Positions 41,075-62,197 of a DNA stretch of 64,000 nt are shown here, one piece after another. Below the pieces are notes generated by a model. The model saw only the letters and a list, made by a program, of their open reading frames with translations. It did not search any database and had not been told where the DNA came from. A program made the translations under genes and the position numbers. The number at the start of each line of letters is the position of its first letter. The first letter of the stretch is position 1. This DNA is from Planctomycetota bacterium. GTDB taxonomy: Bacteria > Planctomycetota > Phycisphaerae > Phycisphaerales > SM1A02. The DNA lies in contig JACZRS010000013.1 of NCBI GenBank assembly GCA_022574595.1, positions 1-64,000 of the forward strand. Reading direction: 5' to 3'.

Positions 41075-41243
41075 GCTTAGGTTCCATTAAAGGCCGCCCA
41101 TCAGAGGCGTTGGAACCTAAGCAAAGGTGTACGCACTCTGACAGACGACTTTTTCAATTTTCAAAGGGATTGCTTAGATTCCAAGAGCAATATACATGAG
41201 TTCATTGTAAGTGCAAGGATTGATAATCGAATAGTATTCATTA

Positions 41244-41510
41244 TTAAGATTGACCCTTCATGACGGCTTTCTTTACCTTCTCCCACTCAGACCTGGATTT
41301 GCAGCCATCATTCCACCAGCAGTTAATTTCCAAATTGTCCCAACGCTTCGCTGCACCGATCTTATTTCCTTTGGGAACTTTGCCCGCAGCGTCCCATCTC
41401 AGCCAAGACCGCAGCGACACATCGAACATTGCGCAAACTGTCTTTGCACTAATCCCCACCCTTTGATCGGGCTTTGTTGTATTCAAGATGGTGGAGTTAG
41501 TGGTTGTCAT
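41244..41510 (-). CDS. Small HTH DNA-binding protein, excisionase/AlpA-like
   Basis: 88 aa. KTVCAMFDVSLRSWLRWDAAGKVP is a MerR/AlpA-type winged helix-turn-helix, followed by KRWDNLEINCWWNDG as in the C-terminal wing. Such proteins act as excisionases or activators of the integrase in islands. Its ATG overlaps the TAA of the primase (TAATG), so it is the next gene in that operon. Confidence 0.72.
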   Translation of the reverse strand: MTTTNSTILNTTKPDQRVGISAKTVCAMFDVSLRSWLRWDAAGKVPKGNKIGAAKRWDNLEINCWWNDGCKSRSEWEKVKKAVMKGQS

Positions 41511-43771: not shown

Positions 43772-43841
43772 GGGAAAAAGGTTAGAACCAGCGACAACCT
43801 TAGCCAGCCGATTCGCTTGGGACTCATCTCTAGCTGTAGCC

Positions 43842-44078
43842 TTATTGTTGGCGGGATTGCGAGGCAATATTACTACTTTCACTTGATACCGCTTCGAGTT
43901 TGCGAGACAACAGCGCGGCTTCTACAGCTTTAACATTAAAGAGCATTCGGCGACCAGGCTTAATGCAAGGAATGCGTTTCGCTTTAGCTTCCTGTACAAG
44001 CCAAGTAGCCGGAATACCGAGCCTCAGTGAGCAAATTCGGGACGAAACAAATTTAATCTGGGGGTCTTGATTATTCAT
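43842..44078 (-). CDS. Small HTH DNA-binding protein (helix-turn-helix type 17)
   Basis: 78 aa. SRICSLRLGIPATWLVQEAKAKRIPCIKPGRRMLFN has the excisionase-family pattern: helix-turn-helix, then a GRRxLFN wing. It probably controls or primes the downstream primase gene, which starts 70 bases later (or overlaps it if the GTG start is used). Confidence 0.72.
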   Translation of the reverse strand: MNNQDPQIKFVSSRICSLRLGIPATWLVQEAKAKRIPCIKPGRRMLFNVKAVEAALLSRKLEAVSSESSNIASQSRQQ

Positions 44079-46657: not shown

Positions 46658-49600
46658 TTGCCAGCAAACTCACCGTTCACTGTTATTGGGCTCGCTCTTG
46701 GGCAAGGGCCTTCAGCTCTAGAAGTGATGATTGTTCGTTGCCCGCGCGAACCTCAGCTACCTACCGTGCGGTCATTATGGAAACAACGAAATAATCGCCG
46801 CGCAGCACCTCTTCTCGTAATTGTCTTACACAATGAGCGAGCAACTATTTGCGGTGCAAGTGGTATCGATCCTCCGGTGTACCCTAATGCGGATCGTGGC
46901 CAAGTTGAGCGCGTTTGCCGCGAAGCATTAGATCTACCTGATCGTCATGCAGTTCTGCACTATCTTCGAGACGCTCTGGAAGCTGTTAAACCGGAAACGC
47001 CCTTGCCGGGCATCCGAAACGATGGGTTCCTGGCTACGCATGAATTGGCTCACGGTGCGCGGTTGTTGAATGAATGGAACTCCGCGCAAGAAAAAGCAAG
47101 ACCGTTGCTGGGTCGCTCTGGCAATACACTACTCAATAGCCTGGGCTTTAACGTTGAACCGTGTGATCAATTGACCTCAATACTGCGCGCTGGACCTGAT
47201 GGTCAGAGGCTTGCGCTAGCAGTACTTCTTCACACCACAGAATCCCCTGATATTAACACCGACCGATTCAGTGGGCTCTCGCCGGTGTCCTACGCCATGA
47301 CCGTGGCCGAACGAGAAAACCTCCCTTATGTTGTCGTCGTGCAAGATCGCAAGTTGCGCATTTACCCCGTTAAGACCGGTGTCGGAGTTGGTCGGCGTGG
47401 TCGCCATGAAACGTTTGTCCAAATAGATACAGGGCTCATTCGTGACGATGATGCTGCGTATCTTTGGCTGCTTTGTTCAGCAGAAGCCATCGCCCCTGAT
47501 GGCACACTTCAGCATCTACTCAACGAATCTCATCGCTTTGCAGGTGAACTTGCCAAAAACATCCGTGATCGTATATATGGTTCCGTCATACCAATCCTTG
47601 CAGAAGGAATTGCCAAAGCTAGAGGAGATAGCAAACCAACTGCGCAAGACTTAGAAGATATGTATGAAATGGCGCTGACCATCCTCTTTCGACTTCTATT
47701 CATTGCATATGCTGAAGATAAAGATCTATTGCCATACCGACACAACGGGCTTTATCAGCGCCGCTCACTCAAACAAAAAGCTATTGATCTACTCGAATTA
47801 CACAAATCCGGCCATGATGTCTTCGACAATAACAGCTTTGACGAAACAACTGCCAGGTGGGATGAAGTAAATCTAATCTTCCGTGCTGTTGAAAAAGGCA
47901 ATTCAGAATGGGGTGTGCCGGAGTATGATGGTGGCCTATTTACATCCAAATCAGAAGAATCTCGTATCGGTGGAATGCTGGCCGAGATTAACCTCCCTGA
48001 TCGTGTGATGGGTCCAGTCCTACGCGATCTGCTAATCATCCAGACTGATGAAGGATGGGGACCCGTTGATTTTCGTTCGCTTAGTGTTCGTGAATTCGGA
48101 ACGATCTACGAGGGGCTACTCGAATCAGAGCTTTCTGTTGCAGAAACAAATCTAACCTACGATGAGCGAGGTAGGAACCAATTCGTTTATCGACCATGCA
48201 TTGGTGATGAAGAATCCAAGGTTACGAAAACCCACATCTATATCCACAACCGATCCGGTGCGCGCAAAGCTTCAGGCTCCTACTTCACTAAGGATTTCGC
48301 AGTAGATTACTTGCTCGATCAAGCGCTTGAACCAGCGTTGGTAGATCACCTGGCGCGGCTTGATAAACTTGACGATGATGAAGCCGCAAAACGCTTCTTT
48401 GAGTTTCGTGTTGCAGATATCGCAATGGGATCGGGTCACTTTCTTGTTGCAGCAGTAGATCGTATTGAACGCGCCTTTACACAATATCTATCAAAGCGCA
48501 GACTTTCCGGCGTAACTCACGAACTTCAGACATTACGAGGAGCCGCAAAGGATGCGCTCGGATCACTTGCTGATGAAATAGACATCGAAGACAACCAACT
48601 TCTGCGCAGGCAGATCGCAAGGCGATGCATCTATGGTGTAGATATAAATCAAGTCGCAGTCGATCTGGCGCGACTTTCGATCTGGATACATACTTTCGTA
48701 CCCGGCTTGCCTCTGTCGCTTTTAGATCACAACTTGGTGCGCGGCAATTCTCTAGTCGGCATCGGGCGCATTAGTGAGATTGAAGCCAAAGCACGCGACG
48801 ATGAATTGCCGCTATTTACATTGGATGTTCAGCGTTTGGTAGGCGAAGCGATTGAACCACTCAGGCGGCTTGCCAATATCACTGATGCAACAGTTGCCGA
48901 TCTAAAGCGCGCTCGTCGCGCTATAGCTGAAGCCAGAGAAAAATGCGAACCGGCAAAGGCATTGTGTGATATCGTAACTGCTGCGCGTATGAATGATGAA
49001 CATATACCCATCGATCTGGGAAATTGGGACAAGATCAAGGACAAACTCCCAGGCTCTAAGCATCACAAAGCTGCGATCAAGAGTCTGGCGGATCTAGACA
49101 TTCTACATTTTCCGATTGCATTTCCTGAAGTCTTTGCCAATGAATACCCAGGATTTGATGTGATCCTTGGGAATCCACCATGGGAAGAAGCAACGCTGGA
49201 AGAACATGCGTTCTGGGCGAGACATTTCCCCGGTCTCCGCTCCATGAACCAGAATGAGCAGGAAGCGCGCAAAGCCGAACTACGAAAGCAGCGACCTGAT
49301 CTGGTAGAGGAATATGAAAAAGAATTACTTGAGACGGAAGTGATCCGTAATGCACTTACCTGTGGTGTTTACCCAGGGATGGGAACGGGTGATCCTGATC
49401 TTTACAAAGCATTCTGTTGGCGTTTTCGTGTACTTACCAGAGATCCCGGTGGGTGGCTAGGTGTTGTGTTACCACGATCAGCATGGAATGCTAAAGGCTC
49501 GACTGAGTTCCGTTTAGGTATGCTTCGAAATACCGATCCGCTTTCATTAGCAGCACTAGTTAATAATAGTCAATGGGTATTTCCTGATGTCCATCCACAG

Positions 49601-50671
49601 TACTCTATAGTTTTGACAACTGCACGCAATAAATCACCCCAGGGAAAGAATGTACATTTAAAGGGTCCATTCAGGAGTCTTACTTCGTTTATTGAAGGAT
49701 CAGTGCAAGCCTCTGCTGACTTCCCCGCAGAGCAAATCGAATCCTGGACTGATTCAGCCTCATTGCCTCTACTTCCTACTGAAGAATCTTTACCGGTTTT
49801 TGTTCAATTAAGGAAAGCTCCTCCAGTAGGCTTGAATAACCAAAAGTCATGGCGCGCACGCCCATATACTGAATTACATGCTACCAACGATAAGAAATAC
49901 ATGGATGTTGAATCTTCCGAATGCCCTGATGGATTCTGGCCAGTGTTTAAGGGAGCAACATTCGATATTTGGCAGCCGGATACCGGAATCTATTACGGTT
50001 GGGCAGATTCTGAAGTAGTATTGCCTGTACTTCAACAAAAGCGAAGTCGCGGTCACAGGAATCTACGTTCAGCGTTTAGTGAATTTGATCCAAAGTGGAT
50101 CAATAATCCCATAACTTTACCTTGCCATTCAGCGCGCATAGCTTTCAGGGATGTTACAAGAGCAACAGACAGTCGCACTGTTCGGCTTGCACTAGTCCCG
50201 CCAAATGTTGTTATTACGAATCAAGCTCCATACTTATTATGGCCAAGGGGAGATGAGAAAGATCAAGCGTACTTGTTAGGTGTACTTGCTTCTATCCCAC
50301 TAGATTGGTATGCACGTAGGTTCGTAGAGACTCACGTAAATTTTTTCGTCTTCAATCCTCTTCCCATACCCAGACCATCACGCGGCGATCTACTTTGGCA
50401 GCGTACAGTGGCACTTGCTGGACGACTTGCATGTCCTGATGATCGATTTGCAGAGTGGGCTGAAGCTGTAGGTGTCGAATGCGGTCCATTGCCCGATGAT
50501 CAAAAGCAAGACATGATCCACGAGTTGGATGCAGTAGTCGCACACTTATATGGCCTAAAGAAAAAACACTTAGTCCACATCTTCGAGACCTTCCATGTAG
50601 GTTGGGATTATCAAGATCGACTCCGTGAAACACTGAAGCATTTTGACGAGTGGAAAGAGAAGGTGAAGTGA
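46658..50671 (+). CDS. Large Eco57I-type DNA methyltransferase of a restriction system
   Basis: 1337 aa. Motif I is ADIAMGSGHFLVAA (about 584-597) and motif IV GNPPW (about 836-840), the signature of N6-adenine methyltransferases. A target-recognition region follows (about 1000-1250). The N-terminal 500 residues match the extended arm of Eco57I/PglX/DrmMI-like enzymes. The first possible start is TTG at 46658; the open frame continues upstream to a stop at 46574 with no ATG, so the true 5' end is doubtful. Stop and next start are one base apart, so it is coupled to the helicase. Confidence 0.88.
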   Translation: MPANSPFTVIGLALGQGPSALEVMIVRCPREPQLPTVRSLWKQRNNRRAAPLLVIVLHNERATICGASGIDPPVYPNADRGQVERVCREALDLPDRHAVLHYLRDALEAVKPETPLPGIRNDGFLATHELAHGARLLNEWNSAQEKARPLLGRSGNTLLNSLGFNVEPCDQLTSILRAGPDGQRLALAVLLHTTESPDINTDRFSGLSPVSYAMTVAERENLPYVVVVQDRKLRIYPVKTGVGVGRRGRHETFVQIDTGLIRDDDAAYLWLLCSAEAIAPDGTLQHLLNESHRFAGELAKNIRDRIYGSVIPILAEGIAKARGDSKPTAQDLEDMYEMALTILFRLLFIAYAEDKDLLPYRHNGLYQRRSLKQKAIDLLELHKSGHDVFDNNSFDETTARWDEVNLIFRAVEKGNSEWGVPEYDGGLFTSKSEESRIGGMLAEINLPDRVMGPVLRDLLIIQTDEGWGPVDFRSLSVREFGTIYEGLLESELSVAETNLTYDERGRNQFVYRPCIGDEESKVTKTHIYIHNRSGARKASGSYFTKDFAVDYLLDQALEPALVDHLARLDKLDDDEAAKRFFEFRVADIAMGSGHFLVAAVDRIERAFTQYLSKRRLSGVTHELQTLRGAAKDALGSLADEIDIEDNQLLRRQIARRCIYGVDINQVAVDLARLSIWIHTFVPGLPLSLLDHNLVRGNSLVGIGRISEIEAKARDDELPLFTLDVQRLVGEAIEPLRRLANITDATVADLKRARRAIAEAREKCEPAKALCDIVTAARMNDEHIPIDLGNWDKIKDKLPGSKHHKAAIKSLADLDILHFPIAFPEVFANEYPGFDVILGNPPWEEATLEEHAFWARHFPGLRSMNQNEQEARKAELRKQRPDLVEEYEKELLETEVIRNALTCGVYPGMGTGDPDLYKAFCWRFRVLTRDPGGWLGVVLPRSAWNAKGSTEFRLGMLRNTDPLSLAALVNNSQWVFPDVHPQYSIVLTTARNKSPQGKNVHLKGPFRSLTSFIEGSVQASADFPAEQIESWTDSASLPLLPTEESLPVFVQLRKAPPVGLNNQKSWRARPYTELHATNDKKYMDVESSECPDGFWPVFKGATFDIWQPDTGIYYGWADSEVVLPVLQQKRSRGHRNLRSAFSEFDPKWINNPITLPCHSARIAFRDVTRATDSRTVRLALVPPNVVITNQAPYLLWPRGDEKDQAYLLGVLASIPLDWYARRFVETHVNFFVFNPLPIPRPSRGDLLWQRTVALAGRLACPDDRFAEWAEAVGVECGPLPDDQKQDMIHELDAVVAHLYGLKKKHLVHIFETFHVGWDYQDRLRETLKHFDEWKEKVK

Positions 50672-50672
50672 T

Positions 50673-53600
50673 ATGAGTAAGAGCGGGAAGGATAAGCAAC
50701 TAGAGCAAGACTTAACACATCCAGCACTATCTGAAACACGGCCGCTGTTTGTAGATAACCGTGCGGGTAATACCATGGCCCGTGCGCTTCATGATCATCT
50801 GCAAGCGCTTAATACTGAAGGTGCGTTACCATTCGGTGTAGATATTGCCACTGCATTTTTCAATGTTCATGGTTTCAATCTTATCGCTGATGAATTAAAT
50901 AAAGTAGGTCAAGTGCGATTGATGCTAGGCGCAGAGCCAGTTCCCGAATCACAAAGGCCTAGCCGAGCGCCAGGTGATCCTCCAGAACCAGCATTTACGA
51001 AGAAATTGGTTGACGGTGCATTAAGTCAACTTGATAAAGGCTTAGAACATGATCGCGATTTGCTTCCATTCGATGAGGAAACTGATGCAGCAGTGCGCAG
51101 GCTATTGGAGATGCTGCATAGCAACAAGATTGAAGTGCGCCGTGTTGTGCGCCAATTCTTACACGCTAAAGCATACATCTTTCGTTTAGCAGGTGGAGGT
51201 AGTGTTGTCGGCTCAAGCAATCTGACCTTTTCAGGACTTAGGCGTAATCTAGAACTCAACTTGGGTCAATACTCCGACCCGGTTGTAGGTAAGATTGAGA
51301 ATTGGTTTGATGAGTTGTGGGAAGGAGCGGAGCCTTATGACCTGGCCGGGTTGTATGACCGTCTCATGGCAGAGTATTCGCCATATCTGATTTTCTTGCG
51401 CGTTCTTTACGAATTGTATGGTGAAGAGCTAGGTGAAGAAGAGGAAGAATCGGGCGACATTCCACTGCTTCAGTTTCAACAACACGGGGTTTGGCGAGCA
51501 CTTCGGATCCTGCGAAAGTGTGGAGGAGTTTTGATCGCCGATGGAGTTGGATTGGGCAAGACATTCACGGCTGGAGAGATTATTCGGCTTTATCGTGAAC
51601 GGCGACAGCGCGTGCTGCTAATTTGCCCAGCAGCCCTGCGTGATAGTACGTGGCGGCAATTCCTAAATCAGCATCAGCTTCTTGTTGATTCTGTGTCATT
51701 CGAGCAATTGGCCAATGATCCGAGTTTGGGTGGTAAAGGGAACCCCTTGCCTAATCCAATTGATGATTACGCACTGGTGGTTATCGACGAAGCACACAAC
51801 TATCGAAATCCAGATTCACCGGCACGAGCTGGGGTATTGCGTCAGTTGCTAATGGGTCAGCGACGGGATGTTGTGATGTTGTCTGCGACACCGGTCAACA
51901 ACTCGCTTTGGGATCTCTATCACCTATTAAGGTATTTCGTGAAACAAGATGCACTTCTTGCTGATCGAGGAGTACTTTCGATTCGTGAACGGTTTAGTAA
52001 AGCCATGCGCGAAGATCCATTCAGCTTGAGTCCGGATCTGTTGTATCCAATAATCGACGCTACAACAGTTAAGCGCACCCGAAAATTTATAAAGAAACAC
52101 TATGAAAATGATTTGATAATTATGCCCGACGGTCGGCACATGCCCATCCGATTCCCAAAGCCTATTGCTTCAACAATCTCATACGATCTTGAAGAAGTAT
52201 TGCCTGGATTTTTAGGTGAACTTGAGGATGCTCTGATGCCAGCGGACGGACATCCCAGACTTACGCTGGCTCGATACACCCCGGACAACTATTTGCTAAG
52301 TGGAGACAGCCAGCCCGATCCTACAATCTCAGGCTTGCTGCGTTCTGCTCTCTTAAAGCGTTTCGAGTCGTCAATACATGCATTTGCGCGTACCACTGGT
52401 CGGATGGTAGAGCAACACACACTGTTCTTGCAGGCATTAGACGATGGCAAAGTGATTCGCAAAGAATTCATGCGAGAGTTATCTGCTCTTGATGATGAAG
52501 CGATTGACGAGTTACTTGAAACGCCAGGAGTGACCGAGTCTTCGGATCAGTATGACGTGGTGGCTTTACGCCGGGATGTTGAGTCCGATCTACAACTACT
52601 AGACGAGCTGCACAGGGAAGCGGCGTCGGTGAAGCCGGAAGATGATCCGAAACTCGCAGCACTCTTAGAAGAGCTTGATTGTATCGTAGTTCAGGCTGAG
52701 CAACAGGCTGTTGATGCAGAAGACGCAGGCCAGAAAATGAAAGTGATGATTTTTTCCTTCTACAGCGACACAATACAATGGATCGAAACATATCTCGATC
52801 GAGCGCTGGAGAAGCATCCTCGTTTGCGGAGATATGCTGATAGAAGAGTGTCGGTTTCTGGTAACATTCCTCACGGTGGTATCAATCGGGAGGAAGCTGT
52901 ATTTGGTTTTGCGCCTAAGACATCAGGAGCGCCTGCTAACCGGCAAGATGATCGTTTTGATCTAATCATCACTACTGATGTACTTGCTGAAGGAATGAAC
53001 TTGCAGCAATGCCGAAACATTATCAACTTCGATTTGCCGTGGAATCCTATGCGGTTGGTGCAGCGGCACGGTCGAATTGATAGAATCGGTAGCGAGCATG
53101 AGGAAGTATTCCTACGAACATTCTTTCCAGATGCCCAGTTGGACCGGCTACTGAACTTAGAAGGGAGGGTTCGTCGGAAGTTGGCACAAGCAGCCGCATC
53201 CGTTGGCGTTGAAGCAACTCCAATAGAACGAGGCGCTGAAGGGGATCAGTCCTTTGCCGAGACACGAGAAGAAATAGAGAAACTCCACCAAGGAAATAAC
53301 AGCCTTTATGAAGACGGTGGTACGGACTCAGCTGCACAAACTGGTGAGGAGTATCGACAGGAACTTCGCAAAGCACTATTGCAGAGAGGTGATGAAATCC
53401 GTGAATTGCCTTGGAAAGCAGGTTCAGGAATGGCTAGGGGTCCCAAGCGGGGTCATTTCTTTTGTGCAAGAGTAGGGCAGCGCGTGTATCTGCGGTTTAT
53501 TCCGTATGGTGAGCAGGGGCATTCTGAACAGATCATTGAGGAAATTGGAACATGCCTTCGTATGATCGAATGTACGGCCGAGACGCCGAAAGTAATGCCC

Positions 53601-54014
53601 ACAGATCTAAAACAAACTGCGTTTGCTGCTTGGCAACTCGCACGTGAACACATATTTAATTCATGGACTTATGAAACGGACCCAGCGAATCTGCATCCGC
53701 GAGTCCCGAAGATCAATCAAAAGATTGCACAATATCTGCGTGAACATCCTCCGGTATCTTTAGATCAGGATGACCTTAAGAATGTGCTTGATGCAATTGA
53801 GGCTCCATGTTCCCGAAGGGAAGAGAAGATGCTGCGCGCTGTATTCGAATCTGATGATCACACAGGTATTGCTAAATCGAATGCGCTTGTAGAAGAAATT
53901 GCGCGTATTGGACTTGAGCCATATCAAGCAGTTGAACCATTACCGCCAATCGAACAAGAAGATATCCACTTGATTGCTTGGATGGTAATTGAATCTGAAC
54001 AAGTGATCGACTGA
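50673..54014 (+). CDS. PLD-nuclease/SNF2-like helicase of the restriction system
   Basis: 1113 aa. The N-terminal phospholipase D-like domain has HAKAYIF...GSSNLTFSGL (about 163-188). The superfamily 2 helicase has Walker A GVGLGKT (about 290), DEAH (about 371), SATP (about 404) and the second RecA domain with TTDVLAEGMNL and QRHGRIDRIG (about 770-810). Fused nuclease and ATP-dependent translocase fit the restriction partner of the methyltransferase directly upstream. DISARM DrmD/DrmMI are the nearest described pair I know, but drmA, drmB and drmC are missing. Confidence 0.88.
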   Translation: MSKSGKDKQLEQDLTHPALSETRPLFVDNRAGNTMARALHDHLQALNTEGALPFGVDIATAFFNVHGFNLIADELNKVGQVRLMLGAEPVPESQRPSRAPGDPPEPAFTKKLVDGALSQLDKGLEHDRDLLPFDEETDAAVRRLLEMLHSNKIEVRRVVRQFLHAKAYIFRLAGGGSVVGSSNLTFSGLRRNLELNLGQYSDPVVGKIENWFDELWEGAEPYDLAGLYDRLMAEYSPYLIFLRVLYELYGEELGEEEEESGDIPLLQFQQHGVWRALRILRKCGGVLIADGVGLGKTFTAGEIIRLYRERRQRVLLICPAALRDSTWRQFLNQHQLLVDSVSFEQLANDPSLGGKGNPLPNPIDDYALVVIDEAHNYRNPDSPARAGVLRQLLMGQRRDVVMLSATPVNNSLWDLYHLLRYFVKQDALLADRGVLSIRERFSKAMREDPFSLSPDLLYPIIDATTVKRTRKFIKKHYENDLIIMPDGRHMPIRFPKPIASTISYDLEEVLPGFLGELEDALMPADGHPRLTLARYTPDNYLLSGDSQPDPTISGLLRSALLKRFESSIHAFARTTGRMVEQHTLFLQALDDGKVIRKEFMRELSALDDEAIDELLETPGVTESSDQYDVVALRRDVESDLQLLDELHREAASVKPEDDPKLAALLEELDCIVVQAEQQAVDAEDAGQKMKVMIFSFYSDTIQWIETYLDRALEKHPRLRRYADRRVSVSGNIPHGGINREEAVFGFAPKTSGAPANRQDDRFDLIITTDVLAEGMNLQQCRNIINFDLPWNPMRLVQRHGRIDRIGSEHEEVFLRTFFPDAQLDRLLNLEGRVRRKLAQAAASVGVEATPIERGAEGDQSFAETREEIEKLHQGNNSLYEDGGTDSAAQTGEEYRQELRKALLQRGDEIRELPWKAGSGMARGPKRGHFFCARVGQRVYLRFIPYGEQGHSEQIIEEIGTCLRMIECTAETPKVMPTDLKQTAFAAWQLAREHIFNSWTYETDPANLHPRVPKINQKIAQYLREHPPVSLDQDDLKNVLDAIEAPCSRREEKMLRAVFESDDHTGIAKSNALVEEIARIGLEPYQAVEPLPPIEQEDIHLIAWMVIESEQVID

Positions 54015-54345
54015 GGATGGCCGGTTGTGTAAAGAATACGAACCAAGATTACCTGGATCAGATGACACCGATTGCTGAGATCATCGGCTGTACATGATGA
54101 TTTTCTGTAAGCTGCTGAGTGCTGGCTGGGGCTGTGTCTTCTTTTTAACGTCGCTGATGACGTCGAGAATTTGGTCGAGCGAATTGTGCAGACTGAGCTT
54201 TGGCCGACTAATGGTTAGGGAGTTTCTCAGAACTGTTTGCAAAGAGGTTATTTTAGTATGATCCGTTGTATTAAGCTAATAAAATAGAGAATTAGGTACT
54301 GGTTCACTCTCAGCTGGGGAGTATTTGTAGTGTATAATACGGGCG
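54015..54345. other. Intergenic region with promoter of the 66-aa gene
   Basis: 331 bases downstream of the helicase. No gene was recognised. A TATAAT box at 54333-54338 lies seven bases before the ATG at 54346; the -35 region is poor. The transcript would start at or next to the start codon (leaderless). Confidence 0.5.
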
Positions 54346-54546
54346 ATGGCTGATCAGCCAATCAATTCCGACCCCAACGTGGAATCCGCCAAAGTGGTCG
54401 GCAAGGCGATTCTGGCGGATTCATTGCCCGCTGATCTTGAGGCCGCATGGGCTGAGTGGTCCAAGAGCACTAAGAACGTCGATGAGCGGGGCATGACGCT
54501 ACAGCGGGCAGCGTTTGAGGCTGGGGCCGAGACGGCTAGGCGATGA
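54346..54546 (+). CDS. Small acidic protein, unknown
   Basis: 66 aa, Ala/Glu-rich, likely helical, no known family. ATG directly behind a TATAAT box. It converges with the third gene of the toxin-antitoxin operon, overlapping it by 11 bases. The GC-rich codon use resembles that operon. Considered real because of the promoter, but evidence is modest. Confidence 0.5.
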   Translation: MADQPINSDPNVESAKVVGKAILADSLPADLEAAWAEWSKSTKNVDERGMTLQRAAFEAGAETARR

Positions 54547-55042
54547 TGTTCTCGTATACAGAAGGCTGCTCGGACTCAATAAGGTCGTCGGTGAAGTCGA
54601 ACACCAATTGAATATCTAGCCCGGGATTCCCATTGTCGTTATAAGAATCAACGTCCGTCTTGAGGTGTTGGCAATCAGTGAAGATCATTGATCGACGTTG
54701 TTGAAACGCCTCCTCAATGTCATCTCGACGATGCGCGTCATCTTCCAAGTCGAGCCACAGCGTCATTTGCTTGTGTGTTCCGTCCGGAAGCTCCTCACTC
54801 ATTCTTAGGCAGTGCTTCTTACGAACCCGACGACCCTGCGGGTCAGTAAAGTACTCCTCCCGCATTGCCTCAGATAACTCGTGAGCGCACACGTCAATAG
54901 CGCGTCGGCGCGGCATTTCCCATTTCTTGTTTCGGATCGCCCACGATGCGATAGTCTTAGAACTAGTGGGCCACGGCTCTCCGGCTTCGCGATAGTCCGC
55001 GACTATTTCTTGCCTGTAGTGCGTTTTCGTTTTGTCGTACAT
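54536..55042 (-). CDS. Third gene of the HigB/HigA-ImmA operon, unknown function
   Basis: 168 aa from the ATG at 55042 (GGAG seven bases upstream); an upstream start would overlap the preceding gene. The N-terminal half is basic and contains SSKTIASWAIRNKKWEMPRR, which looks like a DNA-binding helix-turn-helix. It is followed by REEYFTDPQGRRVRKKH; the C-terminal half is acidic. It starts 13 bases after the antitoxin gene, so it is cotranscribed with it. I believe this type accompanies HTH-ImmA genes elsewhere but give no name. Confidence 0.72.
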   Translation of the reverse strand: MYDKTKTHYRQEIVADYREAGEPWPTSSKTIASWAIRNKKWEMPRRRAIDVCAHELSEAMREEYFTDPQGRRVRKKHCLRMSEELPDGTHKQMTLWLDLEDDAHRRDDIEEAFQQRRSMIFTDCQHLKTDVDSYNDNGNPGLDIQLVFDFTDDLIESEQPSVYENIIA

Positions 55043-55055
55043 GTCTGATCTCCGA

Positions 55056-56162
55056 TCAGGCCGCCGGAATCCATCCATCTGAAACGGCGGTTTCTATAAT
55101 AGTGTCTCTTATCTGAACCAGCATCTTGCTGCTGTGGCTGTATTTAATCGCTTTGCGGTATTGTAGCTGTCCTACCACAATGCCTGGGTGGATACCAACT
55201 TTGTTAGCAAACTGGATGATTGACTTAGCGGAGAAGTACGGTCTCTTACGCAGGATGAACGATTCAATTTCCCCTGGCGGGATAAGCATCGATGCAGCTT
55301 CGGCGTTGGCTCGTTCCTCAACTTCGTTCGCTGCCTCTCCCATGCGGGTATCCGCCAAGTCCACGTCGATTCTGAAAGAGTCTCGGTTTATGACGTGAGA
55401 CAACTCATGGCACAGAGTGTGCCAGAAGTTATCGATACGGCCAATGCGTAGAGATAGCACGATAACTGGGACAGTGCTGCGGGCTTTATTAAGCCAGAGT
55501 GTCGCACCATCTATTTTTGTCGAGCGAAGATGTTTCACCACGACGAACCGAATCCCGTACTTAGCGAGCACTGCGGGCACACTCCTGATTTCCTCTGAAT
55601 GTGCCGCGAGTGCTCGCAGCCTTCCACATAACTCTTGCGCCCGCGACGCGCGGTATGGCTGAACGCATTGAGCCGACGCCTTACGCATCGCCAGTATGCA
55701 CCATGCTACGTGTGCGGTTGTGATCTCGTCTGCTGACTGCTTGAACACGGCTTCTAACCGTGGCCGCTCCTTGAAAGACTTAACTCCGAAGAAGTCAAAG
55801 ACCGCTTTGCTAGCCTCAATGACGGTCCCTGTGGAAGGTATCCATCCACGAAGCTGCATCTCCCGTATGGGCGCATAGCTCATTTGAATAGCGCGATCGC
55901 TAACGCCTTTGGATGCACCAGAGAGCCAAAGCTGATACGAAGATTCCAGATTGAGCCAAAACTGAGCTTCTACGCCAAAAGATGATGCCAACTCACCTGC
56001 GGACTTCGTAGTAATCTTTCGCTTCCCGTTGATGATCTCGTTTATAGCAGCGAGCGGCCGTTGCATGAGATCGGCGAGATCCTGTTGCGTCCATCCGCGC
56101 GCATCCAACTCCTCGCGGATTGTGTCGCCGGGCGGTGGTACTAGTGCGGGTCGTCGTTTCAT
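55056..56162 (-). CDS. HigA-type antitoxin fused to ImmA/IrrE metallopeptidase
   Basis: 368 aa. The N-terminal XRE helix-turn-helix (about 12-70: GDTIREELDARGWTQQDLADLM) is of the HigA/VapI kind. The C-terminal half is an ImmA/IrrE zinc peptidase with CHELSHVIN (about 250). Such proteins repress their own promoter and may be controlled by cleavage. The ATG follows the stop of the toxin gene without a gap (TAAATG). Confidence 0.87.
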   Translation of the reverse strand: MKRRPALVPPPGDTIREELDARGWTQQDLADLMQRPLAAINEIINGKRKITTKSAGELASSFGVEAQFWLNLESSYQLWLSGASKGVSDRAIQMSYAPIREMQLRGWIPSTGTVIEASKAVFDFFGVKSFKERPRLEAVFKQSADEITTAHVAWCILAMRKASAQCVQPYRASRAQELCGRLRALAAHSEEIRSVPAVLAKYGIRFVVVKHLRSTKIDGATLWLNKARSTVPVIVLSLRIGRIDNFWHTLCHELSHVINRDSFRIDVDLADTRMGEAANEVEERANAEAASMLIPPGEIESFILRKRPYFSAKSIIQFANKVGIHPGIVVGQLQYRKAIKYSHSSKMLVQIRDTIIETAVSDGWIPAA

Positions 56163-56462
56163 TTAGTGATAGTCCTCGATGCCAACCACAATAATCTTCT
56201 TCTCATGCTGCCCTTCCTTGACCTCAATAATCAGTCGATACTTCTTATTGAGTCGCATTGATCGTTGATGTGACCGCTTGCCTTGTAGCTTCTCGTAATG
56301 AAGCCCACCCAATCCACGAAACACTCGTTCGTCTGGAGCCGAATCGATGGTGTCCATAACACGGAAGAACGCTTTAGCGACGCCTGCCGGGAAACCACCC
56401 AATCCTCCATCGTATTCGTAGTAGAGGCGTTCAAGCTTGTCGTTCCTGAATTCAAAATCCAT
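56163..56462 (-). CDS. HigB/RelE-type toxin
   Basis: 99 aa of the RelE/HigB fold: FEFRNDKLERLYYE, RGLGGLHYEKLQGKRSHQRSMRLNKKYRLIIEV and a final IVVGIEDYH. The family cleaves mRNA at the ribosome. Toxin-first order is the usual one for HigBA. AAGGA lies 11 bases before the ATG, and a strong promoter is upstream at 56498-56526. Confidence 0.88.
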   Translation of the reverse strand: MDFEFRNDKLERLYYEYDGGLGGFPAGVAKAFFRVMDTIDSAPDERVFRGLGGLHYEKLQGKRSHQRSMRLNKKYRLIIEVKEGQHEKKIIVVGIEDYH

Positions 56463-56497
56463 ACCGAATTGATTCCTTGTCGGTCCATCTTGGTCTA

Positions 56498-56526
56498 ACT
56501 ATATCATACCTTGAGAGCATCGTCAA
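56498..56526 (-). promoter_or_regulatory. Promoter of the HigB/HigA-ImmA operon
   Basis: TTGACG (complement of 56521-56526), spacer 17, TATAGT (complement of 56498-56503). Start of transcription about 56491, giving a short leader of about 29 nt. Confidence 0.75.
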
Positions 56527-56540
56527 TACATATTTTATCA

Positions 56541-56561
56541 TTTTATCGAAAATCGATAAAA
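56541..56561. promoter_or_regulatory. Operator-like inverted repeat TTTTATCG/CGATAAAA
   Basis: A perfect 8-bp inverted repeat with spacer AAAAT lies midway between the -35 boxes of the two divergent promoters. It is a good candidate for the binding site of the HigA-like repressor. Confidence 0.65.
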
Positions 56562-56567
56562 ATAAGA

Positions 56568-56596
56568 TTGACGATACGGATTGGAGTTGTCATAAT
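56568..56596 (+). promoter_or_regulatory. Divergent promoter of the 72-aa gene
   Basis: TTGACG at 56568-56573, spacer 17, CATAAT at 56591-56596. The ATG at 56603 sits where transcription is expected to start, so the mRNA is probably leaderless. The -35 sequence and its flank (ATTGACGAT) are identical to those of the opposite promoter. Confidence 0.75.
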
Positions 56597-56602
56597 AGAG
56601 AC

Positions 56603-56821
56603 ATGAGACGACTTAACAGCGAAAAAAGGGCTATAATCCTCAACGCTGTCTGCAATGTCCACTGTGCTACATACCGCGTTGAACATGCAAATGGTGAGGG
56701 CTATTGGAGCTTAGAAGCGATTGATAGTGAGCGGCAGGAGTACACGGTCAATCACGAAGATTTGCTTGGAGCAGTTTGTATACTGGCAGAGTTGTTAGAT
56801 GTGGATTTGAGTGACGTATAG
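56603..56821 (+). CDS. Small protein, unknown, divergent from the toxin-antitoxin operon
   Basis: 72 aa. The ATG at 56603 was chosen because the promoter ends there; a longer TTG frame from 56477 would run across both promoters. The sequence is hydrophilic with an acidic C-terminus (LLDVDLSDV); no family recognised. The next gene begins ten bases after its stop with AGGAG in between, so they form an operon. Confidence 0.65.
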   Translation: MRRLNSEKRAIILNAVCNVHCATYRVEHANGEGYWSLEAIDSERQEYTVNHEDLLGAVCILAELLDVDLSDV

Positions 56822-56830
56822 GAGTGACAT

Positions 56831-57451
56831 GTGGCTGACCGGCACGCAAAAGGAGAACTGGCTGTCTTTTACTCGTTCATGTCAGCCTGCACGTTGGAAA
56901 TCATCCCGAATTCAATTCGGAAACGTGAGCCTCCGGAACCAGATATTTTGTGTGAGATTCAAGGTGGAAGTCCACTGGCCTTCGAGATCTCCGAAATAGT
57001 TTATCCTGCCGTAGCAAGGAGACTCTACTCAAAACTTGAATTAGAGAAACAATTCCGTGAAACTTGTGAAAAGCTGCCACACGATGATCAAGAGATTCTC
57101 AAGCAACGGTCAGTTTTTGTTGCGTTTAATGAAAAAGCGTCACAAAGGGCCAAAGAGAATATAGTATCAACGATCGTTCAGTGGGTTATTGGGGCCGGAA
57201 GAGAGTATCTCGGTGAACTCACTATCCCGAATTCAGCGACGAATATCGTTCGACTAGTGAGAGTCCGACAGGATGAACTACTGGGACCAACATTCTTCGT
57301 CTCAGGGGCCGGTACCTATCTTGATACCACAATTGAAACAATCGCAAACAAACTCAGTCGGAACTATGAGGGCTCATCCCCCAAGGAGTTGTTAGTCTTC
57401 TACGGAATCCAAGGAGATCATCCTAATAAAGCTGTGGTTACCTCAGCTTGA
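56831..57451 (+). CDS. Possible PD-(D/E)XK-like nuclease family protein
   Basis: 206 aa with a GTG start; ATAGGAG lies seven bases upstream (an ATG two bases earlier is in another frame). The segment PDILCEIQGGSPLAFEISEI resembles the Asp...Glu-x-x core of a group of PD-(D/E)XK nuclease-like proteins found beside defence genes. A Lys of the usual motif is not visible. Function is therefore uncertain. Second gene of the unit divergent from the toxin-antitoxin operon. Confidence 0.6.
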   Translation: MADRHAKGELAVFYSFMSACTLEIIPNSIRKREPPEPDILCEIQGGSPLAFEISEIVYPAVARRLYSKLELEKQFRETCEKLPHDDQEILKQRSVFVAFNEKASQRAKENIVSTIVQWVIGAGREYLGELTIPNSATNIVRLVRVRQDELLGPTFFVSGAGTYLDTTIETIANKLSRNYEGSSPKELLVFYGIQGDHPNKAVVTSA

Positions 57452-57576
57452 GAGCTTACTTATGAACGAGTTGTCTGGCTCTCCATTTCGCCGTGTTTGG
57501 GTTTTCAACTTTGGTTCAGGTGAAATAGTGTATGAGTACCCCACGACTGCTGATTCAGACCAACGGGATTGCACCG

Positions 57577-58637: not shown

Positions 58638-59336
58638 CTATCGGTGGCGTCTAATTGCTGCCCCACACTCCGGACACTTCTCATGCTCGACGTGGCGCAG
58701 GTCGTAGCCGCATTTGATGCACAAACCGCGCTTGCGGCGGATCAATCGGCGCGTGGCGAACGGCACAAATACAACAAACCAAACAATTGCTGCATACATA
58801 ATCGTATCGATAACAAATCCAGGCCAGATAATACGAGTGGGTAGAAGTATGTTCGCATAAAGCAAGGCGCTAATTTGTGCGCTATCCTGTGATAAACGCA
58901 GGCCCCACAGAACCTCGGCTTCGCTAGACATATTCTCAAGCAATTCTGGAGCATCACTTTTCACGGCAGAAGACAACGACAGCATTGGCCATCCGCGGGC
59001 ATCCATGATCGCGATCGTCGTTGCTTCGGAATTAAGTCTATCTTTGGATAGGCACCATGCAGGTAGATGCAAGGAACCTGAATTTCCATTCGCTAAGATT
59101 TCTAGATCAGACTCGGCTACCCAAAGCGTCAAAATGCGCATGGCGCCTGAGCGTTTAATTTGTTGCACCCGCCATAGGGATGATCCCGGTCCACTGATTT
59201 CATCGCGAAACTCTACTTTGTCTGGGAATTGATTGACATCGATCGTGAGCCAGACTGCACACCCCCACGCCACTGTAACATTAACTAATGCGCCGAGGAT
59301 GAGAAACAATGCAAGTTTGAACAGGCGGTGTTTCAT
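58638..59336 (-). CDS. Zinc-ribbon membrane protein, paralog 4 of 4
   Basis: About 232 aa from the ATG at 59336. The N-terminal MKHRLFKLALFLILGALVNVTVAWGCAVW is a membrane anchor, a variable middle follows, then a second membrane segment and the ribbon KCGYDLRHVEHEKCPECG. Most similar to the genes at 60078, 60873 and 61472 at both ends but not in the middle. It starts 35 bases after the lipoprotein gene. Confidence 0.8.
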   Translation of the reverse strand: MKHRLFKLALFLILGALVNVTVAWGCAVWLTIDVNQFPDKVEFRDEISGPGSSLWRVQQIKRSGAMRILTLWVAESDLEILANGNSGSLHLPAWCLSKDRLNSEATTIAIMDARGWPMLSLSSAVKSDAPELLENMSSEAEVLWGLRLSQDSAQISALLYANILLPTRIIWPGFVIDTIMYAAIVWFVVFVPFATRRLIRRKRGLCIKCGYDLRHVEHEKCPECGAAIRRHR

Positions 59337-59371
59337 GCTGATCATTCCGAGGAGAATTACGACCGAGGAGT

Positions 59372-60010
59372 TCAATCCGGCGGCTGATCTGACGGCTCTG
59401 CTTCATCATCAATCACTTTATCTTCAGCGTTTGCAGTCGGCGGGATGTATCCGTCCGCGTCTACGAGGATGAACCGCCCAAACTGATTTGGTACTGTTAA
59501 ATCTTTACTCCAGCCCGCATCGATCGCCACTTGTATCATTTCATCAATCAGGGGTTGAGGTATCTCGTTTACAAACACCCAGTTCACTTGCTGTTGATTC
59601 AGGTCACAGAGTACAACTGGATCACCATAGTCTCCGGAAGCCCGGCCATCCGCATCGACCCGTCCGAGGAGTTGAAGTTGCATGGGTGGTGGATCGGTCT
59701 TTGGATTGGCGTTGTAAGCAATATGCAGGATCATGTCGGGATGCTCTACAATCGGGAGAAAAACGGTTGCTGCAGTCTTAGCATCAACCAACTGTGGACC
59801 ATTCATTCCTTGCGTTGTGTAGAGAATGGTGCCGTATGTGCGATCCTGTCCCTCACCAAAAGTTTCATAATAGGTGTCGTATACAGGTGCTTCAATCTCC
59901 TCAGCCGTAAAGTTTCTCGGTCTTGCTGGATTCTGATTCTGATTCGGGCATCCTGCGAGTATCACAAGCGCCAGTAGAAGCAACAGAACTGTTCTTGCCA
60001 ATCTTAGCAT
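59372..60010 (-). CDS. Lipoprotein of unknown function inside the paralog operon
   Basis: 212 aa. Signal with lipobox LAGC (Cys at about 20), then an Asn/Gln-rich stretch. No domain recognised. AAGGAGG eight bases before the ATG is a near-perfect ribosome site. Lies between two zinc-ribbon paralogs on the same strand. Confidence 0.75.
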   Translation of the reverse strand: MLRLARTVLLLLLALVILAGCPNQNQNPARPRNFTAEEIEAPVYDTYYETFGEGQDRTYGTILYTTQGMNGPQLVDAKTAATVFLPIVEHPDMILHIAYNANPKTDPPPMQLQLLGRVDADGRASGDYGDPVVLCDLNQQQVNWVFVNEIPQPLIDEMIQVAIDAGWSKDLTVPNQFGRFILVDADGYIPPTANAEDKVIDDEAEPSDQPPD

Positions 60011-60077
60011 GTCGTTAGCCTCCTTCTAAACAATCAGAATTCTCTCACAGTGCGCGGTTTATGCTTCATGCTTATGA

Positions 60078-60782
60078 TCATACTCTGCTTTCACGCCAAG
60101 TTCGTGCCCCACACTCCGGACACTTTTCATGCTCGACGTTACGCAGATCGTAACCGCACTTGATGCAGTGGCCATGCTTGCGGCGAATGGTGCAGCGAAG
60201 TTTGAATAGACCAAGGATTATTAGACAAAGAATCGCAGCGTAGAAGATTGTGTTTAGTATAAAGCCTAGCCAGATTGGGCGTGTGGCAAGTATGCGCGGC
60301 ACGAAGTTATCCCACGAACCAAATTGGTAAATATACCCTTCGCTTCCATATGTGTGTGGCAAATCAGTCGGATCAATATTATACCAGTAACTCCATAAGC
60401 TTCTGGCCGGCCAGCCATAACAGTAAATCCATCTTTTCTCTAAGATAATGTAATCAGGTTTGCGAGCAACTTTCTTCTTAAAGTCTTCGCTTAATTCTCC
60501 TAAATCAGACCATGAAGGAATCATCTCCTCTGGTGCAGCACCATGATCGCGTATGTCAAATGGTTCCTTACTCCAACTCCGTGTACTCGAATAAAGAGTC
60601 ATACCTGGTGCATTAGTTTGTATCAATTTCCATGTATATTGGCCTGAAGATCGAAATCCTATTTCCGGCCAAGGATCGAACTTTGCAGGATTGATCCAAA
60701 CCGCGCACGCCCATGCGATTGCAATATTAACTATCGCACCGAGGAAGAGGAACAACACGAGTTTGAACAGCCGACGTTTCAT
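60078..60782 (-). CDS. Zinc-ribbon membrane protein, paralog 3 of 4
   Basis: 234 aa. N-terminal anchor MKRRLFKLVLFLFLGAIVN, variable extracytoplasmic middle (about 30-165), membrane helix near 170-192 and cytoplasmic ribbon HCIKCGYDLRNVEHEKCPECG. Member of the tandem family. Confidence 0.82.
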   Translation of the reverse strand: MKRRLFKLVLFLFLGAIVNIAIAWACAVWINPAKFDPWPEIGFRSSGQYTWKLIQTNAPGMTLYSSTRSWSKEPFDIRDHGAAPEEMIPSWSDLGELSEDFKKKVARKPDYIILEKRWIYCYGWPARSLWSYWYNIDPTDLPHTYGSEGYIYQFGSWDNFVPRILATRPIWLGFILNTIFYAAILCLIILGLFKLRCTIRRKHGHCIKCGYDLRNVEHEKCPECGARTWRESRV

Positions 60783-60872
60783 AGCATCATTCTACGCCTC
60801 AGCTTCCCGTCCCCAGCCACATTCCGGGCATATATCGTGATTTGTACCCCGTAAATCATAACCGCAATTGAT

Positions 60873-61475
60873 TCAGAGGTTGCGTTTATGGCGGATGATT
60901 CGCCTAGCAGCAAAAGGGCTTAGCCACATCAGCCACACAATTGCAGCATAAAAAATTGTATTGATGGCAAAGCCGGGCCAGATAGGGCGGAGAGGGAGAA
61001 CCTTAGGAATAATTGCCATACTACCTGCGAACGGCGAGAGTGACAATTCAATTCCGCCTTCTATAGGCAGACGGTGGCTAGTACCGTCCAATGCCTCGTA
61101 CCAAGTTGCTGCCTTAGACCACAATACCAGCAGTGGCCATCCTCGCGCCTCAGCATCCCAAAATTCCATCCTGCGGTTCTCATTCAATTCCGGATCATAC
61201 CTGATCCATGTCGGGACGAGGTCCTCAGGCAGTGGTCCTACAGAGTAATAGACTTTAGGGGTTAATTTACGGGAGCGGAACCATTTTACTCGAAACGCAG
61301 AAATCCTGTGGAACGTTTCGATGTTCCAAGTACTAACAGGCGATCTTCGATGGGCGCGAATGTAATTGATTGTCTCCTCGAAGCCAATAAAAACGGACGA
61401 GCCCCACGCCACAGCAACATTAACTATCGCTCCGAGGAGAAAAAACAAGACGAGTTTGAACAGGCGACGTTTCAT
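60873..61475 (-). CDS. Zinc-ribbon membrane protein, paralog 2 of 4, cut by TGA at a ribbon cysteine
   Basis: About 200 aa from the ATG at 61475, which overlaps the upstream gene's stop (ATGA). Anchor, middle and second membrane helix are like the paralogs, but the frame stops at a TGA (60873-60875). Reading on gives INCGYDLRG...CPECG up to a TAG at 60792. In the paralogs the codon at this TGA is a Cys (HCIKC). Either a one-base nonsense mutation (TGC to TGA) removed the ribbon, or UGA is recoded. Confidence 0.8.
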   Translation of the reverse strand: MKRRLFKLVLFFLLGAIVNVAVAWGSSVFIGFEETINYIRAHRRSPVSTWNIETFHRISAFRVKWFRSRKLTPKVYYSVGPLPEDLVPTWIRYDPELNENRRMEFWDAEARGWPLLVLWSKAATWYEALDGTSHRLPIEGGIELSLSPFAGSMAIIPKVLPLRPIWPGFAINTIFYAAIVWLMWLSPFAARRIIRHKRNL

Positions 61476-62197
61476 AATTTCGCACTCGCGGTTAGTTCGT
61501 ATCCACACTCTGGACACTTTTCATGCTCAACGTTACGCAGGTCGTAGCCGCATTTGATACAGTGGCCTCGCTTTCGGCGGATCATTCGCCTTGCAGCAAA
61601 CGGGCTTGACCACAGTATCCAAAGAATCACAGCGTAGATAATTGTGTTGATTGCGAAGCCGGGCCACATTGGCGATAACGGTATCAAACGCCATGTTGCA
61701 AGCATTTCATGATCAACGTTCTTTGATGGCAAAATAAGAATGCCTGTTCGTTCACGTTCAATGATTGGCTCATACTTGCTTGATCCCGTTTTTTTGCGCC
61801 AAACAACTATGAAACGACCGCGTAAGGCTAAAGCCGGCCAACCAGACGCTTCCACCACGATTTCATTTCTTACCGTATCTTGTATTCTTTGTGTTTCGTC
61901 GTCCAATGACATCCATAAAGGGATCAGACTATCAGCGGGGATTACTGTATCCCCCGGAAGATAGAGGGACGCCCAGTTAGCTACAGTTGCACGAATACGA
62001 ATAACACCAATACGCTTGAAACGATAAAGCTGCAGGTCATGGCTGGTGCCAGTGTGGCGGCGTGATGTATATCCTCTGTCTATGTTACTCCAGATTGAGC
62101 TTGTAATTTGTCTGTACGAAAAACTCCATGATATTCCAATCGTAATCAATGCGCCTAGAAAAAGGAACAATACGAGTTTGAACAGGTTGCGTTTCAC
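61472..62197 (-). CDS. Zinc-ribbon membrane protein, paralog 1 of 4 (first of the operon)
   Basis: 241 aa with a GTG start at 62197. N-terminal anchor MKRNLFKLVLFLFLGALIT, variable middle, membrane helix (about 178-200) and ribbon HCIKCGYDLRNVEHEKCPECG with an added tail. Head of a minus-strand operon of four paralogs plus one lipoprotein. A possible TAGAAT box (62203-62208) just before the GTG suggests a leaderless message. Confidence 0.82.
   Translation of the reverse strand: MKRNLFKLVLFLFLGALITIGISWSFSYRQITSSIWSNIDRGYTSRRHTGTSHDLQLYRFKRIGVIRIRATVANWASLYLPGDTVIPADSLIPLWMSLDDETQRIQDTVRNEIVVEASGWPALALRGRFIVVWRKKTGSSKYEPIIERERTGILILPSKNVDHEMLATWRLIPLSPMWPGFAINTIIYAVILWILWSSPFAARRMIRRKRGHCIKCGYDLRNVEHEKCPECGYELTASAKL

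Follow-up and report, generated by a model that had tools for sequence, protein, structure and literature searches.

A predicted HigA operator between divergent promoters of a PD-lambda-2-like toxin-antitoxin module and a probable decayed IS1-like transposon in a Planctomycetota bacterium

In the stretch of Planctomycetota DNA analysed here (64,000 nucleotides, hereafter the window), a toxin-antitoxin (TA) operon on the minus strand and two open reading frames (ORFs) of 72 and 206 aa on the plus strand point away from a common spacer at 56463-56602. An initial annotation of this DNA had described the spacer as a pair of mirror-image promoters around a palindromic operator, and had proposed that one repressor controls both sides, tying the two ORFs to the TA module. 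This raises the question of whose operator the palindrome is, and whether it governs one promoter or both.

Both promoters are sigma-70-like, face outward and have TG-extended -10 boxes. The minus-strand promoter, which serves the HigB-HigA-C operon (56498..56526), has a -35 box TTGACG at 56526-56521 and, 17 nt further, the -10 box TATAGT at 56503-56498. The plus-strand promoter (56568..56596), most likely once that of a transposase, has TTGACG at 56568-56573, again 17 nt, and CATAAT at 56591-56596. The mirror-image arrangement with 17-base spacers was confirmed by the sequence and by a promoter scan, in which these two were the only 10-of-12 promoter sites in the 4 kb scanned; the overall number of promoter-like sites in the 4-kb scan was unremarkable (6, against 4.0 in shuffles, sd 1.8). 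The shared -35 flank was also found as described, since ATCGTCAAT at 56519-56527 and ATTGACGAT at 56567-56575 are 9-mers that repeat each other exactly in inverted orientation. The letters at these two places in the relative L045, presented below, are TTTGACGAT and GTTGACAAT. As just TTGAC is retained there on each side, the 9-mer ATTGACGAT was dropped as a second operator, and because the flanking letters are not conserved in L045, the extra symmetry around the two -35 boxes is probably the -35 consensus plus chance. The ATG at 56603 sits at the expected RNA start of the plus-strand promoter, and the transcript would therefore be of the leaderless type. A comparable TTGAC/-10/ATG spacing precedes many transposases of the IS1-like family.

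Between the two -35 boxes lies, as the initial annotation had it, a perfect inverted repeat, TTTTATCGA-AAA-TCGATAAAA (56541-56561, 21 bp, arms of 9 nt and a spacer of 3 nt), a predicted HigA site that is also present in the loci L045 and L047. It is off-centre, being 6 nt from the plus-strand -35 box and 14 nt from the minus-strand one. By itself the palindrome is modestly unusual (p 0.035 for the 140-nt spacer of the window), and it becomes convincing because the layout is conserved in L045. At up to three mismatches it had a single match in the window (0.03 expected), and genome-wide it matched 3 places, against 5 for a reversed control pattern. The exact palindrome has one site in the genome, and a genome-wide regulon was ruled out for want of a second. 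With one mismatch, the pattern was found in 2 of 294 genomes of the phylum, that is, in its own genome and at one other place, where inspection by eye recognised neither a HigA nor a transposase among the ORFs.

The leftward operon consists of HigB, HigA-ImmA and a third gene in that order, nearly gapless. The HigB-like toxin (99 aa, 56163..56462, minus strand) matches PF05015 (E=5e-11), and homologues occupy the same place in L003, L004, L006, L007, L045, L046, L048, L049 and L139. The following gene (55056..56162, minus strand) encodes a 368-aa fusion of a HigA-like XRE domain with an ImmA/IrrE-type peptidase, which matches the PADLOC model PD-Lambda-2_B (E=8e-43) over residues 8-349, as well as HTH_3 (3.4e-8), the HigA model TIGR02607 (3e-12, 46.2 bits with a cut-off of 47.7) and Peptidase_M78 (0.0088, under its Pfam cut-off). 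Its translation contains the peptidase motif HExxH as HELSH, and it is the predicted regulator of both promoters. For the third cargo gene (180 aa, 54536..55078, minus strand), Pfam, NCBIfam and PADLOC gave no substantial match. By tblastn, homologues stand directly after HigA in L003, L004, L005, L007, L008, L045 (78%), L047 and L048, and the start in L045 suggests ATG 55042 for the gene of the window. This gene, and the probable decayed transposon around the module, had been overlooked by the initial annotation. As in a type II TA operon, an HTH_3 antitoxin is combined with a palindrome at the operon promoter, here and in relatives.

The known system closest in gene order is PD-lambda-2, in which a HigB-like toxin, an XRE-peptidase fusion and a third component follow one another (Vassallo et al. 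2022, PMC9519451). In such a system, C is related to a P4 phage antitoxin, B is toxic alone and is neutralised by A, and the system protects against phage. The window shares the three-gene order (PMC9519451): a PF05015 protein in the place of A adjoins B, B itself carries the PD-Lambda-2_B match and HELSH, and a conserved third gene without weighty family match occupies the place of C. The first and third proteins of the window are without a PADLOC model (searched for HigB up to E=10), and because they fit none, the module is here named PD-lambda-2-like. It also differs in being probable cargo of an IS1-like transposon and in having a control region in common with the transposase, neither of which is mentioned in the part of PMC9519451 consulted.

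The relative that weighs most in the comparison is L045 (JADFSH010000066.1), from a Planctomycetota metagenome-assembled genome (MAG), whose HigB, HigA and C are 56%, 66% and 78% identical to those of the window and stand in the same order. Its spacer has the same length as that of the window (141 nt from start codon to start codon), its palindrome TTTTATCGAAAATTGATAAAA differs by one change, and both TTGAC boxes are kept together with the 14- and 6-nt spacings. Its promoters, read from the sequence, are TTGACG-17-GATAAT and, in the position of the minus-strand promoter described above, TTGACA-17-TATATT. The divergent ORF of L045 begins MRKLSKEKRAMILSDLVEGNSV, resembling the start of an IS1-like transposase. 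In L047, the palindrome TTTTATCGAAATTTGATAAAA sits in the 5' region of the transposase. Judged by this comparison of sequences, the layout of the control region is real and is conserved in L045. The operator sequences vary widely among loci, with one common to the window, L045 and L047 only, and the layout itself recurs: a palindrome between two outward TTGAC boxes was found in 6 of the 16 spacers between HigA and a transposase (the window, L045, L048, L121, L133 and L008), compared with a mean of 0.01 and a maximum of 1 in 100 shuffled sets. L047, with TTGCGT on the transposase side, is by eye a near miss and was left out of the six. A code linking the HigA recognition helix to the operator was considered and discarded; L004 and L006 agree in both, and L003 and L005 have helices near that of the window and different spacers.

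The plus-strand ORFs were viewed by the initial annotation as partners of the TA module. The 72-aa ORF (56603..56821, plus strand) looks instead like a fusion, its codons 1 to ~17 being transposase-like and the rest belonging to a small-protein family. Its first 51 nt agree with the transposase start of L099 at 36/51 positions and the next 51 nt at 13/51; over 81 transposases, the means for the same two stretches are 44% and 25%. Used as a query, the ORF matched L099 (9.5e-6), L098 (0.003) and L097 (0.06), with each E value given for a single locus and the first two matches at the transposase start, while the reverse search by tblastn with the L005 transposase finds the start codons of the window at E=0.45 only. 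Residues ~13-72 resemble instead three further small ORFs encoded elsewhere in this genome (E 6e-4, 1e-3 and 8e-3), two of which were recovered by tblastn (~2e-7, single loci); the weakest, L187, was not. These copies of the family, L185, L186 and L187, are located on contigs C3 and C30. A deletion thus appears to have fused the start and promoter of a transposase, of which about 17 codons are left, to a member of this family.

The 206-aa ORF (56831..57451, plus strand, GTG start) follows 10 nt after the 72-aa ORF, downstream of the captured promoter, and had no relative in any collection searched. Family searches (Pfam, NCBIfam, PADLOC) gave none; a peptide-pattern scan, which detects close relatives only, gave none in 84,980 species genomes or in viral contigs; and plasmids, phages and 100 related genomes gave none either. 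Among 392 genomes of the phylum, the best hit outside its own genome (E 0.008 over 69 aa) was judged noise, a search of solved structures returned nothing, and the single-sequence fold was unusable (pLDDT 34). No convincing match was obtained by tblastn against the comparison loci, and a weak one in L028 was dropped, as no ORF of at least 60 aa exists there in that frame. Viral scans with the 72-aa ORF and with HigA yielded nothing useful. The two ORFs are therefore not an established partner operon: the link of the 206-aa ORF to the TA module looks accidental, and its place behind the plus-strand promoter may matter in the strain of the window only, where it may now be under HigA control.

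Besides the window and L045, HigA-ImmA stands head-to-head with an IS1-like transposase at 14 loci, often with the C gene present. Eight are viral, out of 54 fetched (L118, L121, L133, L135, L139, L145, L153 and L154); two are on plasmids, out of four examined (L172 of Mesorhizobium and L173 of Methylocapsa); and four are chromosomal, namely L005 and L008 from the phylum of the window, L047 from a Phycisphaerales MAG and L048 from a Planctomycetota MAG, in which the contig stops within the transposase. The L005 transposase matches PF03400 (DDE_Tnp_IS1) at 2.3e-7, over the cut-off. Each of these 14 loci has at least one transposon end. Many records show AAACTGAnnCACTACC after the transposase stop and GGTAGTGnnTCAGTTT upstream, past the cargo, and in most two-ended elements the transposase stop is immediately followed by the right end, with the left end on the far side of the cargo. 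Both ends were found in 31 of 72 locus records, defined by a transposase frame of at least 600 nt and ends within one mismatch of a degenerate pattern, with the most alike pair taken where several were possible; among the 72, L005/L101 and L008/L115 are the same place twice, and L136-L138 look like one phage context. Exact 8-bp target duplications flank 21 of the 31 two-ended elements and are absent in 10, and the two variable letters of the ends match between ends in 30. HigA-ImmA is the cargo in 10 of the 31, seven of them with duplications. The one-ended HigA loci retain the left end (L121, L048) or the right (L139, and L008 with two mismatches), and in L045, which is decayed, a left end was recognised at two mismatches.

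Other cargo was also observed. L127 carries RmrA and RmrT (RosmerTA), L148 RmrA with a partner gene without match, L144 PD-Lambda-5_A, L149 an AAA/STAND ATPase, and L095 a Fic protein (SoFic 1e-96); at L095 the left end and a HigA match were not found, and the right end was found just with two mismatches. The modules of L127 and L148 are co-directional with the transposase, and those of L144, L095 and L149 opposite to it. Because the ten cargo proteins scanned with PADLOC were hand-picked, and three (the second L148 gene, L119 and L124) were without a model, a rate of defence cargo is not derivable from them. Near the left end, grouping by eye places a small plus-strand ORF in L123, L140, L141, L142, L121, L148 and L172, annotated in L172 as 'histone H1'. 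L123 is the shortest two-ended element (1323 bp), and such an ORF is the only one of at least 90 aa beside its transposase. Within 70 nt before the transposase start, 49 of 68 loci have a TGCTTG/CAAGCA motif, which is ~20 to 30 times denser upstream than in the gene body or downstream (L095-L171). It is possibly the operator of the transposase itself, often overlapping its -35 and -10 boxes, and it is absent from the spacer of the window.

In the window there is most likely a decayed copy of such an IS1-like transposon, not an active member. Its probable left end (54295..54310, plus strand, GGTACTGGTTCACTCT) agrees at 15/16 positions with the reversed right end of the L008 element and lies past the cargo operon, as the left ends of intact elements do. 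Of 16 end variants tried, eight had their best match in the window here; an unrelated place at 30314-30329 (minus strand) also reaches 15/16 with another variant, and the general end pattern fits at 54295 with 3 mismatches only. Because of that competing place, much of the argument is carried by the position and by gene D (66 aa, 54346..54546, plus strand), just inside the end, which has no PADLOC family and is 48% identical over 60 aligned positions to an ORF at the same place in L045. A left end at 54295 is therefore likely, not certain. On the right, the candidate ATAGTGTATGAGTACC (57525..57540, plus strand) agrees with the reversed left end at 12/16 positions. Shuffling the 200 nt that follow the 206-aa gene gave as good a match 6 times in 2000, and shuffling 2 kb did so 34 times in 500; no target duplication accompanies this candidate, which was rejected as too weak.

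The surroundings have features of their own. At 46658-54014, beside the probable transposon, a Type IIG restriction enzyme-methyltransferase (PADLOC 5e-298) is followed directly by a PLD-SNF2 helicase (nearest PADLOC model C3a139, next DrmD), and this region resembles a defence island. ORFs at 39848-43882 resemble, by eye, a tyrosine recombinase and a primase/helicase, and their neighbourhood may be an integrated island. On the other side, the minus strand at 58638-62197 has a row of similar membrane-protein-like ORFs, three of which end in a CIKCGYDLR...CPECG zinc-ribbon-like tail.

The ownership of the palindrome was approached by comparing 25 loci, the window and 24 others, with the distant HigA loci L009-L026 left out. 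Among nine HigB-led loci without a transposase match in the stretch covered, a palindrome precedes HigB at p<0.05 in seven (0.090 and 0.134 in the others); these palindromes mostly differ in sequence from that of the window, and in seven of the nine the palindrome stands 1-8 nt before a TTGAC/TTGAT box. As for cargo, a palindrome upstream of the transposase, within 110 nt, reaches p<0.05 in 6 of 16 HigA-carrying loci (Fisher 2e-4), the other ten falling short, and in 4 of 32 elements with other cargo and a left end found (1.6 expected; Fisher 0.17), which is not clearly an enrichment; the transposase motif was masked, and the head-on contrast is borderline (one-sided p 0.054). The palindrome was also retained in the window and L045 after loss of the transposase. 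These three lines (the HigB loci lacking a transposase, the cargo contrast and the survival) make a HigA operator the most likely identity of the palindrome. At L095, with Fic cargo and no HigA match, there is a TTTTATC-containing inverted repeat that is not explained by a pure HigA-operator reading. Among the distant loci, L016 (HigB-HigA) has no palindrome, and L012 (1092-1122, in HigB orientation) has a TTAAC...GTTAA inverted repeat before HigB, found also in one further HigA-ImmA locus and resembling the published Pseudomonas aeruginosa HigA site.

In that species, the higBA operon is repressed by dimers of HigA that bind palindromes at its promoter, and the published site is TTAAC-GTTAA (PMC6987408); here TTTTATCGA-AAA-TCGATAAAA lies between two divergent promoters. 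We consider it probable that the spacer belongs, as control region, to a decayed IS1-family transposon with PD-lambda-2-like TA cargo, and that its palindrome is a HigA operator governing both promoters. Where the relatives are intact, transcription of the cargo operon and of the transposase gene diverges from back-to-back promoters, and HigA-ImmA, alone or with HigB as a co-factor as in other type II systems, would bind between the -35 boxes. By analogy with P. aeruginosa HigA at its own promoter, the bound protein would limit both RNA polymerases, so that the state of the TA module would set the expression of the transposase as well as its own, tying transposase synthesis to the antitoxin level. 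In the window, all but ~17 codons of the transposase would have been lost, leaving the promoter and start codon joined to a small ORF of a host family, with the 206-aa ORF behind it. By estimate, the centre of the palindrome lies ~52 nt upstream of one expected RNA start and ~60 nt upstream of the other. Activators also bind upstream of -35 boxes. As the palindrome is upstream of both, the sign of regulation is uncertain and one-sided activation is possible. The promoters, the palindrome and its conservation, the ends and target duplications of relatives and the transposase-like start of the 72-aa ORF can be read from the sequences, whereas HigA binding, the sign of regulation, the effect on both promoters and the expression of the 206-aa ORF are inferred.

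A more restricted view is that HigA uses the palindrome for the HigB-HigA-C promoter alone, the plus-strand promoter being an independent, uncoupled relic of the transposase. Autoregulation alone would preserve the palindrome, because it precedes HigB also in the nine loci without a transposase match, and the TGCTTG/CAAGCA motif of the transposase promoters suggests separate control. Against this, the palindrome is nearer to the plus-strand -35 box than to the minus-strand one, both distances are kept in L045, and a dimer or pair of dimers bound at this position would be expected to overlap with contacts that each polymerase makes upstream; we regard such uncoupling as rather unlikely. More improbable still is that the palindrome belongs to the transposon, as a transposase binding site or internal repeat. 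Its position in the transposase 5' region of L047, the look-alike at L095 and the four palindromic elements among those with other cargo would fit this, but palindromes are not enriched overall in the 32 elements with other cargo, HigB loci lacking a transposase match have them as well, the palindrome outlived the transposase in the window and L045, and the motif actually linked to the transposase is a different one.

A chance combination of a short palindrome with two good -35 boxes in an ordinary AT-rich spacer would agree with the window taken alone, in which the palindrome is modestly unusual and promoter-like sites are not in excess. The comparison argues strongly against it, as the whole layout is conserved in L045 and partly in L047 and recurs far beyond shuffled expectation, so that we give chance hardly any weight. 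The proposal of one repressor for both operons is thus supported by comparison in so far as a predicted antitoxin operator separates divergent promoters in a recurring arrangement; the link it drew to the 72-aa and 206-aa genes found no such support, and what the operator would originally have tied to the TA module is the transposase that mobilised it.

Among mobile elements, the nearest parallels are TA passengers of the Tn3 family (Lima-Mendez et al. 2020, PMC7157771), which, as in the present case, adjoin genes for transposition and the promoters of these genes. The question of which promoters and regulators act on them is left open by the authors. Tn3 elements have a resolvase and a res site (PMC7157771), whereas the present elements have an IS1-type transposase encoded by one gene and a predicted antitoxin operator that separates two promoters, a contrast that covers transposase and operator. 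Also similar are the transporter-IS elements (tIS), with a transposase gene and passenger genes between inverted ends (PMC9330008), although the part of PMC9330008 consulted names no IS1-family example with TA or anti-phage cargo. An IS1-type transposase (L005), ends and duplications are present in relatives; the window itself has a likely left end, a weak right-end candidate and no duplication. In open-licence literature, at the level of titles and the starts of abstracts, we found no IS1-family element with PD-lambda-2 or other anti-phage cargo, an absence that is unproven.

Tentatively, and with somewhat more doubt than belief, these loci can be read as compact IS1-like transposons that ferry TA and anti-phage modules (PD-lambda-2-like, RosmerTA-like, PD-lambda-5-like and SoFic-like) on phages, plasmids and chromosomes; in the PD-lambda-2-like ones, the antitoxin operator would stand between the promoters of cargo and transposase, with XRE-ImmA coupling transposition to defence. 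Their annotation as 'IS1 family transposase' does not show this cargo, and they suggest a route by which the small PD-lambda-2-like TA/defence module spreads, as cargo of IS1-like elements. Shared control of a TA passenger and a transposase, left open for Tn3 in the part of PMC7157771 consulted, is here confined to a 140-bp region whose layout recurs in several elements; as one palindrome parts the two promoters in it, shared control is testable. If the coupling is true, titration or cleavage of the antitoxin, upon phage infection or entry into a new host, would release the toxin module and the transposase together, and the window would represent an element under domestication, its transposase promoter captured by other genes.
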